A DNA stretch of 64,000 nt from Truepera sp. (GTDB lineage: Bacteria > Deinococcota > Deinococci > Deinococcales > Trueperaceae): NCBI GenBank assembly GCA_032027045.1, contig JAVSMU010000001.1, positions 934,646-998,645 of the forward strand, written 5' to 3'. The stretch's first letter is position 1, and each line of letters opens with the position of its first letter. The position numbers and the translations under genes are program-made. Of this stretch, positions 8,150 through 33,335 are shown one piece after another. Below the pieces are notes generated by a model. That model was not told the DNA's origin and searched no databases. It saw only the letters and a program-made list of their open reading frames with translations.

Positions 8150-8740
8150 GTGGCTGAGCTTTCGGCTCTCCTCGAGCAAGAGGCGAGCTCGGAAATCGAG
8201 ACGATCATCTCCGAGGCGCAAAGTCGCGCCTCGGAGATGATCGCGAACGCGAAGACGGAGGTCGAGACCTTGACGGCCAGCCACGCGCGCGCCGCGAAGG
8301 CGCAGGGCGAAGCGGCCCTGGTGCGCGCGAAGTCGGCCGCGCAGCTGGAAGCGTCCGCGTTGCGCCTCAGGGCCCAGCACGACGGGGTCGAGAGCGTCTT
8401 CGCGGCGGCGCGCGACAAGCTCGACAAGCTGCTCAGCGATCCGGAAGAGTACGCTCCCGTGTTCTCGAAGCTCCTGAGCGAAGCGGTCGCGGCAGCGGGC
8501 ACGCAATCACTGCAGGCCGTCATCGTCGGTCCACAGGACCGGGAACTCGCCGAGAAGGCCGTTGCGGCCGCCGGCCTCACCGTCCCGGTCGAAACGGCCG
8601 CTGACGTCAAGGGCGGCATGCGCCTGCGCACCGCCAACCGCAGCGTCATCGCGAACACCCTCTACGGTCGGCTCGAGGCGTTGCGCGGTGAGCTTGCCTC
8701 GGAGGTCTCGACGGCGCTCTTCGGCGCCAAGGCAGGTTGA
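8150..8740 (+). CDS. atpE: V-type ATP synthase subunit E (peripheral stalk)
   Basis: 196 residues. Residues about 1-100 form a long charged coiled coil (EASSEIETIISEAQSRASEMI) that pairs with subunit G, and the C-terminal part (LQAVIVGPQDRELAEKAV, then MRLRTANRSVIANTLYGRLE) is the globular head that binds the top of the A3B3 ring. The GTG start lies 2 nt after the proteolipid stop, so translation is likely coupled. Confidence 0.9.
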   Translation: MAELSALLEQEASSEIETIISEAQSRASEMIANAKTEVETLTASHARAAKAQGEAALVRAKSAAQLEASALRLRAQHDGVESVFAAARDKLDKLLSDPEEYAPVFSKLLSEAVAAAGTQSLQAVIVGPQDRELAEKAVAAAGLTVPVETAADVKGGMRLRTANRSVIANTLYGRLEALRGELASEVSTALFGAKAG

Positions 8741-19283: not shown

Positions 19284-19289
19284 TAGACT
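19284..19289 (+). promoter_or_regulatory. -10 box before the PilT/PilU leader ORF
   Basis: TAGACT is followed by 6 nt and then the ATG of a ten-codon ORF at 19296. The spacing predicts a leaderless transcript. No good -35 is seen. Confidence 0.45.
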
Positions 19290-19295
19290 AGGGTC

Positions 19296-19324
19296 ATGAG
19301 ACCAGTGACAGGAGGTGGGTCCCG

Positions 19325-19328
<4 letters not shown>
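19296..19328 (+). CDS. Short leaderless ORF coupled to the PilT/PilU gene
   Basis: ATG-initiated ORF of ten codons (MRPVTGGGSR). Its TGA overlaps the GTG start of the next gene (GTGA at 19325-19328), and its own sequence carries the AGGAGG ribosome site for that gene. A ribosome loading on the leaderless 5' end would finish exactly at the pilT start. It is too short to judge by coding statistics; existence is inferred from layout. Confidence 0.4.
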
Positions 19329-30861: not shown

Positions 30862-31515
30862 TCACAAGCGGACGGCCTCGAGCCAGAAGATGATGTGCTC
30901 GTTCACGTTCTCGAGGTGATCGCCGAGGCGCTCCAGGTACCGCGCCACAGCCGCCAGGTCGCTGGCGCGGCCGATCGTGCTCGTGTCCGCCAGCATGTAG
31001 GTGAGGAGTTCGCGCTGTATCTGGTCGTAGAGGTCGTCGATCTCCGAGTCGAGCGCGTGGGCGCGCCTGGCCGCCGCCGCGTCGCCCTCGGCGAAGGCCT
31101 TCGTGGTGGTGTCGATCATGACGAACAGCACCTCGAAGATCCGCTGCATGTCGAGGTACTTCTTTATCGGAGGCTGCTGAGCCAAGCGCTCGCCCACCGA
31201 GGCGACGTGCTCCGCGTAATCGCCGGCGCGCTCGATGTCGGCGAGGGCCTGCAGCGCGGCCCCGAGGAAACGCAGGTCGCGGGCCGCCGGCTGGCGCCGC
31301 GCGATGACGGTAAGGATCCGCATCTCGAGGCTCGCCTGGATGGCGTCGATCTCGGCGTCCAACTTGGCGCAGTGCGCCGCCGCGCCGGGCTCGGCCTCGA
31401 TGAGGGCCCGCCGGGCCCACTCGCAACTCTCGCGAACGAGGCTCAGCATGCGCACGAGGTCGCCGGTTATCGCCTGGAGGTCGAGTTCGAGTGGCGTGGC
31501 TGTCGAGTCCGTCAT
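30862..31515 (-). CDS. phoU: Phosphate signalling protein PhoU
   Basis: 217 residues, two repeats of a three-helix bundle. The metal-binding acidic motifs of PhoU are recognisable in EPGAAAHCAKLDAEIDAIQ and LDSEIDDLYDQIQREL, with DIERAGDYAEHVASVGERL and YLERLGDHLENVNEHIIFWL as the paired E/DxxxD segments. PhoU links the PstSCAB transporter to the PhoR kinase and represses Pho signalling when phosphate is ample. Here no pst genes are beside it, but a response regulator and kinase are divergent from it. A GGGAG ribosome site precedes the ATG. Confidence 0.92.
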   Translation of the reverse strand: MTDSTATPLELDLQAITGDLVRMLSLVRESCEWARRALIEAEPGAAAHCAKLDAEIDAIQASLEMRILTVIARRQPAARDLRFLGAALQALADIERAGDYAEHVASVGERLAQQPPIKKYLDMQRIFEVLFVMIDTTTKAFAEGDAAAARRAHALDSEIDDLYDQIQRELLTYMLADTSTIGRASDLAAVARYLERLGDHLENVNEHIIFWLEAVRL

Positions 31516-31615: not shown

Positions 31616-31653
31616 GCGCCACATGCCGCCGCTAGAATGGCGGCATGTGGCGC
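31616..31653 (+). promoter_or_regulatory. Perfect 15-bp inverted repeat framing the -10 box of the response-regulator promoter
   Basis: Left arm GCGCCACATGCCGCC (31616-31630), 8-bp centre GCTAGAAT, right arm GGCGGCATGTGGCGC (31639-31653). The arms match perfectly. The centre contains the -10 box TAGAAT (31633-31638), and the right arm holds the predicted start point and an ATG at 31645. A protein binding both arms would cover the promoter. Confidence 0.8.
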
Positions 31654-31701
31654 AAGGCCCCGAGGGCCGCCCAACCTCTGGCGAGAACGGGTCTCGCGTG
31701 A
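31645..31701 (+). CDS. Short leaderless ORF coupled to the response regulator
   Basis: ATG 6 nt after the TAGAAT box opens an 18-codon ORF (MWRKAPRAAQPLARTGLA). Its TGA overlaps the regulator's GTG as GTGA at 31698-31701. The peptide is basic and has no known match. Coding status is inferred from the leaderless position and exact overlap. Confidence 0.4.
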   Translation: MWRKAPRAAQPLARTGLA

Positions 31702-32366
31702 GCAGCTCCGTCGTCTTGGTGATAGAGGACGACGATGCCTTGCGTGAGGTGATCGCCTTCCACCTCGCCGCCGCCGGCTTCCGGGTCAGCGAGGCCGCGA
31801 CCGCGAGCGCCGGGTGGGAGAGCGTCCCCACGGCGTCGCTCGTCGTGCTCGACTGGATGCTTCCCGACGAGAGCGGGTTGAGCTTCCTCCGCCGCCTGCG
31901 GACGTCCGCCGCCGCCAAGCTGCCGGTGCTCATGCTCACGGCGCGGGCGCGTGAGGCGGAGCGCGTCGAGGGGCTCGAAGCGGGCGCCGACGACTACCTC
32001 ACCAAGCCGTTCTCCGCCGCCGAGTTCGTGGCCCGCGTCAGGGCGTTGCTGCGGCGCGTCGAGCCGGCGAGGCGCGTGGTGGTCGGTGCGTTGGTCGTCG
32101 ATCTCGACGCCCGTGAGGCGTCGTGGCGCGGCGAGAAGTGCGACCTGACGCGGCGGGAGTTCGAGCTCCTGCGCTTCCTCGCGGCCAACCCGGGGCGCGT
32201 CTACGACCGCTTCGAGCTCCTGGACAGGGTCTGGGGCCCTGAGTTCGAGGGCACCGGCCGCACCGTCGATCAGCACGTCGCCCAACTGCGCAGAGCCACC
32301 GCCGATGAGGTGGTCGTGACGGTCCGCGGGCTCGGCTATCGCCTGGGCGACCTCGAGGAGCGCTGA
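31698..32366 (+). CDS. OmpR/PhoB-family response regulator
   Basis: 222 residues. Receiver domain 1-120: acidic pair in VIEDDDALREV, phospho-acceptor Asp in LVVLDWMLPDESG, Thr in VLMLTARAREAE and Lys in DDYLTKPFSAAEF. The C-terminal winged helix (about 130-222) has CDLTRREFELLRFLAANPGRVYDRFELLDRVWG and TVDQHVAQLRRA, with VRGLGYRLG at the end. PhoU is divergent and a kinase follows, so PhoB is the likely role. The GTG at 31698 puts the start just before the receiver; a longer frame reaches 31623 but its first part lies across the inverted repeat. Confidence 0.85.
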   Translation: MSSSVVLVIEDDDALREVIAFHLAAAGFRVSEAATASAGWESVPTASLVVLDWMLPDESGLSFLRRLRTSAAAKLPVLMLTARAREAERVEGLEAGADDYLTKPFSAAEFVARVRALLRRVEPARRVVVGALVVDLDAREASWRGEKCDLTRREFELLRFLAANPGRVYDRFELLDRVWGPEFEGTGRTVDQHVAQLRRATADEVVVTVRGLGYRLGDLEER

Positions 32367-33335
32367 GTGGAGCGCACTGGAACGGGCTGGTGGGACTTCC
32401 TCACGGAGGGCGTCGTGCTGCTGGAGGGCGACCGGGTGCTCGAACTGAACCGCGCCGCCGCCGCCCTCCTCGACGTAGACCCGGTGAGGGCCCGGGGGGC
32501 GGTGGCCATATCCGTGCTGCGCGACCACCGACTCGAAGAGATGTGGCGCTCTGGTTCGAGCGGCGAACTGCACCTGCGCACGCGCACCGTGGCCGTCACG
32601 GTCACGCCGTTCGGCCTGATCCTTCACGACAAGACGGAGTTGAGAGGCGAGCAGGAGGCCGCCCGTGAACTGCTCGCCGTCCTCTCGCACGAGCTGCGCA
32701 CGCCGGTCAGCACCATGAGGGGCGTGATCGAGGCCCTCGAGGCCGGCTCCAGCGGCGCTCCCGGACCGACGGCCGGGGAGGCGCGCCGTTTCCTCGCCCG
32801 CGCCCGCTCGGAAGCGGAGCGCCTCACGCGGCTGCTGGACGACCTCACCGTCGAGGCGCGGCCGCCGCGCGAGCGCAGCGTTCCGGTGGCGCCGGTCGTG
32901 AGCCGCGCCATCACCCTCATGCAACCGCAGTTGCAGCTAAGTGGCGCGACCGTCACCACCGAGGTCGGCGACCTGGTGGCTTGGGTGGACGAGGACAAGT
33001 TGCTGCAAGTGATCGTCAACCTCCTCGAGAACGCCGCCGTGCACGGTCCGGCTGGGGGGCGCGTGGTGGTCGCCGCCTGGCGTGACGGCGGCGTGGGGCG
33101 CCTGGAGATCCGCGACGACGGGCCACCGCTGGCTGCCGCTGTCGTCCCGGGGCTGTTCGCGCCGCACGCCCAGGGTGGCTCCAAGGCCAGGGGCGCCGGG
33201 CTCGGCCTGCATATCGTCAGCTCGATCGCGAAGCGCTGGGGCGGCGAGGCGTGGGGCGGACCTTACCCGGCACCGGGAGCGGCCGCCCGTGGCAACGCCT
33301 TCGGAGTGTCCCTTCCGTTGCCGCCCCGCGGCTGA
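32367..33335 (+). CDS. PhoR-like sensor histidine kinase without membrane segments
   Basis: 322 residues. PAS-like sensor (about 5-95: WDFLTEGVVLLEGDRVLELN), then the H-box LLAVLSHELRTPVSTMRG, N-box LLQVIVNLLENAAVHGP, G1 LEIRDDGPP and G2 GAGLGLHIVSSI. No hydrophobic stretch long enough to span a membrane is present, unlike most PhoR proteins, so it is cytoplasmic and probably senses through a partner such as PhoU. The GTG start directly follows the regulator stop. Its stop codon lies within a palindrome shared with the convergent gene. Confidence 0.88.
   Translation: MERTGTGWWDFLTEGVVLLEGDRVLELNRAAAALLDVDPVRARGAVAISVLRDHRLEEMWRSGSSGELHLRTRTVAVTVTPFGLILHDKTELRGEQEAARELLAVLSHELRTPVSTMRGVIEALEAGSSGAPGPTAGEARRFLARARSEAERLTRLLDDLTVEARPPRERSVPVAPVVSRAITLMQPQLQLSGATVTTEVGDLVAWVDEDKLLQVIVNLLENAAVHGPAGGRVVVAAWRDGGVGRLEIRDDGPPLAAAVVPGLFAPHAQGGSKARGAGLGLHIVSSIAKRWGGEAWGGPYPAPGAAARGNAFGVSLPLPPRG

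Follow-up and report, generated by a model that had tools for sequence, protein, structure and literature searches.

In Deinococcus-Thermus, leaderless mRNAs carry a TANNNT motif 6–7 nt before the start codon and account for about 30% of ORFs (PMC12340547); that study mentions neither Truepera nor small ORFs nor coupling. The design in which a leaderless small ORF is coupled to the gene behind it is already described for mycobacteria. The mycobacterial ORFs start with RTG and overlap the next start codon through an RTGA stop/start; their architecture is conserved, whereas the peptide is not (Shell et al. 2015, PMC4633059). At uPPE2-ppe2, a dependent downstream gene is reached by AUGA termination-reinitiation from an out-of-frame upstream ORF (uORF), which overlaps it by 4 nt (PMC11260477).

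We analysed the phoB promoter in a stretch of 64,000 nucleotides from Truepera sp., referred to as the window. Like the −10-adjacent leaderless mRNAs of Deinococcus-Thermus, this genome shows a spacing peak at 6–7 nt; there, however, the main gene comes first, whereas at phoB one tiny ORF owns the first start codon. The locus shares the leaderless start, the short ORF and the RTGA overlap with the mycobacterial coupled small ORFs. Different from these, the Trueperaceae belong to another phylum and also use overlaps of 8 and 11 nt, and the comparison made here is of sequence only. The out-of-frame uORF and its 4-nt stop/start overlap are shared with uPPE2-ppe2; however, uPPE2-ppe2 is under SD and riboswitch control, whereas the phoB uORF is leaderless and its coupling is predicted.

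The phoB locus and its predicted leaderless start

The phoB-type response regulator gene (31698–32366, plus strand) encodes 222 residues from its GTG and contains receiver and Trans_reg_C domains. It is followed by one phoR-type sensor histidine kinase gene (32367–33335, plus strand; 322 residues); PhoR is the top-scoring model for this gene. On the other side, phoU (30862–31515, minus strand) lies divergently and scores over the cut-off of the PhoU model. PhoB (TIGR02154) is the best NCBIfam model for the regulator, but its 214 bits do not reach the equivalog cut-off of 296.2. Despite this score, a PhoB role is supported by the context, because phoR and phoU adjoin the gene and PHO boxes are present in relatives. 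The first-pass annotation had named a Pho-type regulator, and this name holds: PhoB scores best of all families. Neither an intrinsic terminator nor a classical −35/−10 promoter was found at the locus. A known RNA element was rejected, since the sole match in an Rfam scan (RsmW, 21.6 versus 52 bits) is below threshold.

Upstream of phoB, TAGAAT (31633–31638) is followed by 6 nt and then by an ATG at 31645, which matches the −10-to-start spacing of leaderless promoters. A count over 354 genes, crudely called in this genome, places TANNNT 6 and 7 nt before the start in 43 and 25 cases, respectively, compared to ∼6 for every other spacing. Judged by its sequence, the anatomy of the phoB promoter is that of a leaderless promoter. 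The ATG opens a uORF of 18 codons (MWRKAPRAAQPLARTGLA; 31645–31701, plus strand), whose TGA (31699–31701) overlaps the phoB GTG (31698–31700) by 4 nt, giving GTGA. The first-pass annotation had predicted a start near 31645, and this position, still a prediction, fits the spacing between TAGAAT and ATG. Its −10 box, start point and small ORF are all retained here; what it missed is the leaderless nature of the promoter and the recurrence of phoB-coupled uORFs in the family.

We propose that RNA polymerase would use TAGAAT and start at or next to A31645, so that the mRNA would begin with AUG. Ribosomes would load on this 5′ AUG and translate the uORF, the sequence of which would matter little; having terminated at its UGA, they would reinitiate at the overlapping phoB GUG. 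Several points count against this mechanism. The transcription start is predicted only, and the leader RNA is somewhat structured (z −2.8). Moreover, the ATGTG at the head of the uORF contains an alternative GTG start (31647–31697, plus strand), which is in frame with phoB and permits an N-extended protein (+17 residues) without coupling; AUGUG start ambiguity has been demonstrated in E. coli (PMC9841429).

The window contains a second candidate for a leaderless-coupled uORF, at 19284–19328. There, TAGACT is followed by 6 nt and by the ATG of a 10-codon ORF (MRPVTGGGSR); the TGA of this ORF and the GTG of one type II/IV secretion ATPase gene (PF00437) overlap. In a genome sample of 463 kb (the window plus 20 stretches), uORF-coupled leaderless genes number ∼8 candidates, which does not clearly exceed the background seen at other spacings.

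Putatively coupled uORFs among Trueperaceae phoB genes

A search of 39 genomes gave 30 family phoB loci at E ≤ 1e-60, and all 30 were read. In 17 of them, belonging to nine genera, a uORF of 6–21 codons overlaps the phoB start; the uORF stop lies inside the start region with an overlap of 4 nt (8 loci), 8 nt (4 loci) or 11 nt (5 loci). Among these 17, L138 stands out by its weak −10 (TACAAG). In 8 of the 30 loci phoB starts directly after the −10. Among the remaining loci, one uORF stops 7 nt before phoB and four loci have no clear pattern. The uORF peptide sequences are unrelated between lineages, whereas the architecture is kept.

Compared to a composition null, the overlap of uORF and phoB has P values of 0.02–0.27 per locus, and it is found in 11 of 12 lineages. 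The product of these values, about 1e-11, serves as a guide only, because the lineages are not fully independent and the start codons were chosen by hand. Mapped on the PhoB tree, uORF presence requires 6 changes, compared to 11.7 for shuffled labels; the tree has at least 3–6 gains or losses. The readable order-level outgroups mostly show a direct phoB start. As read from these sequences, what evolution retained is the leaderless promoter plus, in many lineages, the coupled uORF; it is not the inverted repeat described below.

Trueperaceae phoB is thus predicted to be expressed from leaderless mRNAs, and nine genera open these with a throwaway uORF of 6–21 codons. This would extend the mycobacterial leaderless-coupled design to another phylum and show repeated switches between ‘direct’ and ‘coupled’ at one gene, and it makes the phoB loci a natural series for asking why leaderless genes gain a coupled uORF. 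Other arrangements were also observed. In genus g2 (L028 and L029), phoB lacks the leaderless pattern and has a PHO box, a −10 and a longer leader, and L029 contains an SD-like sequence. In L041 (genome G010), phoB has no leaderless pattern and apparently lies directly after the end of one pstB-like gene.

The inverted repeat and the missing PHO box

The phoB core promoter of this genome is overlapped by a perfect inverted repeat (IR) at 31616–31653. Direct sequence check agreed with the first reading of the element: the dyad is of 15-8-15 bp, its arms are 100% complementary, and a −10-like TAGAAT lies in the loop. The left arm (GCGCCACATGCCGCC; 31616–31630, plus strand) is located upstream of the −10, at the spot where relatives have a PHO box. 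The loop (GCTAGAAT; 31631–31638, plus strand) carries TAGAAT, which conforms to the TANNNT-type −10 of leaderless promoters (PMC12340547), and the right arm (GGCGGCATGTGGCGC; 31639–31653, plus strand) holds the predicted transcription start and codons 1–3 of the uORF. The dyad is centred on the −10 and spans about −29 to +9 relative to the predicted start. With such a start, the transcript would include just 9 nt of the right arm and no RNA hairpin would form. An RNA hairpin was rejected on this ground, and also because read-through across the IR is unexpected when the neighbouring genes are divergent.

CTGAC-like half-sites, 11 bp apart and with at least 8 of 10 letters matched at −26/−27 from the −10, were found in 23 of 29 loci. 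These PHO-box promoters of relatives have CTGACN6CTGAC-type repeats ending 10–11 nt upstream of the −10. Different from them, this genome has a PHO box at pstS and none at phoB, where the best match is 7/10 and misplaced (−21). Its nearest sister, the uORF-bearing G004, likewise has no PHO box at phoB (6/10). On the phoU side, the counterpart of GTCAGGGCGATGTCAGG, which three genomes of the same genus carry, is GCGGGGGCGCCTGGGGG in this genome. One perfect PHO-box-like repeat, ATGACGGACCCATGAC, is located immediately upstream of the pstS/pstSCAB operon (L176:9130-9145; G000:C1, about 827130). A PHO box is kept at pstSCAB but lost from both the phoB and the phoU side. PhoB itself has an unchanged recognition helix, RTVDQHVAQLR, as in the rest of the family. 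Because this helix is unchanged and the pstS PHO box is kept, PhoB specificity is probably unaltered and it is the site at phoB that was lost; with that loss, the usual autoregulation of phoB is probably gone.

In a search allowing up to 3 mismatches, the IR is present in 1 of 111 phylum genomes, namely this one. The best dyads around the −10 of 28 relatives match 7–11 of 15 positions. The IR is neither kept at orthologous promoters nor recurs at other promoters of this genome, one or the other of which would be expected of an operator, and it is most likely a recent change confined to this lineage. The right arm resembles the promoter of sister G004 (GACGGCATG; GACGGCATGGGGCC), and the left arm has no alignable counterpart. 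The distance from phoU to the −10 is 118 nt here; among five congeners it is 65–85 nt in four and 126 nt in G005. These features fit a recent event in which the right arm was copied, inverted, to the upstream side, and from these sequences we infer such an event. Template switching produces perfect hairpins in one event (PMC8794818), and quasipalindrome mutations form an inverted-duplication class (PMC7202029). The phoB IR is a perfect hairpin like those products; however, the closest relative compared has about 73% PhoB identity, from which neither the ancestral state nor the template-switch step can be reconstructed.

To place the IR among others of this genome, perfect repeats were counted in the 463-kb sample, taking arms of 15 bp or more and loops of 3–20. 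Six were present, compared to 0 in three dinucleotide-model resamples; two of the six are inside or across coding-like ORFs. Extrapolated from the sample, the rate is about 13 per Mb, roughly 38 per genome. The phoB IR exceeds a simple chance model, yet it is a member of a class of ∼38 per genome. No second copy of its arms exists in the genome at 0–1 mismatch, and 2-mismatch matches number 47, compared to 44 for a reversed-pattern control. Related palindromes elsewhere in the genome match at control level only, and a regulon of similar palindromes was rejected on that basis.

Readings of the inverted repeat

We hold, with somewhat better than even confidence, that this is a leaderless, uORF-coupled phoB(R) promoter carrying a recent, lineage-specific IR of incidental or mild effect. 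Short-range template switching would have reverse-copied the start region (right arm) to an upstream position, or chance may have produced the IR; it now occupies the PHO-box place of relatives, with an incidental or mild effect on phoB expression. The IR itself is probably of local interest only. It is distinctly unlikely that the IR is pure chance, with neither special origin nor function. If ∼38 perfect IRs fall on a genome that has a few hundred leaderless promoters, ∼0.1 coincidences of a perfect IR with a leaderless −10 are estimated per genome, which leaves room for chance; however, perfect IRs far exceed the dinucleotide model and must owe their number to some process or function. The same estimate shows that ‘very unlikely by chance’, as the first-pass annotation had described the placement on a promoter, was overstated, all the more as the coincidence was chosen post hoc. 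That annotation had also suggested a mobile hairpin captured as promoter and proposed an arm search in this and related genomes. The search found no dispersed-repeat copies: the IR arms are single-copy in the genome at 0–1 mismatch, and the IR is present in 0 of 110 relatives and 0 viral contigs, and a dispersed repeat or mobile hairpin (REP/MITE) was rejected. A captured hairpin, regulatory or mobile, is weakly supported.

A perfect IR centred on the −10 also looks like a repressor operator, which counts against the explanation we favour. In this species, a dimeric or tetrameric repressor on both arms would block polymerase at phoB, and since this promoter has also lost its PHO-box control, replacement control is conceivable. 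We nevertheless regard an operator as unlikely: a second genomic site is not above control level, the IR is absent from 110 other phylum genomes, its 15 fully matched bases per arm exceed the need of most operators, and perfect IRs of similar size also occur in coding sequence of this genome. The more specific sequence of events, in which the PHO box was lost and phoB then came under a new, species-private palindromic operator over the whole leaderless core promoter, bound by a putative repressor, is quite unlikely; if true, this private operator would mean that control of the phosphate regulon itself was recently rewired. That PhoB itself binds the IR as a rewired autoregulatory site, as the first reading had also proposed, is extremely improbable. 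Although the phoB promoters of relatives have a PhoB site at exactly this position, the recognition helix is that of the family, the direct-repeat PHO box is retained at pstS, and the arms contain no TGAC half-site, in line with the earlier remark that the motif is not a PHO box. The IR may instead act as DNA, with cruciform extrusion under supercoiling altering promoter opening. As isolated single-stranded DNA it folds at −22 kcal/mol (z about −7); however, nucleation requires melting of a G+C-rich stem and the IR is not conserved, and we consider such an effect very unlikely.

Other perfect IRs were observed in this genome. The window contains one at 8202–8243, with 18-bp arms and a 6-bp loop, in the V-type ATPase (ATP synthase) E-subunit gene; it is longer than the phoB-promoter IR and lies within coding sequence. 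Three more, of 16–17 bp, are located at L191:12753-12790, L193:8365-8400 and L195:6031-6073; one of these is in a GYPYG-repeat coding region, and the rest are without a convincing ORF.
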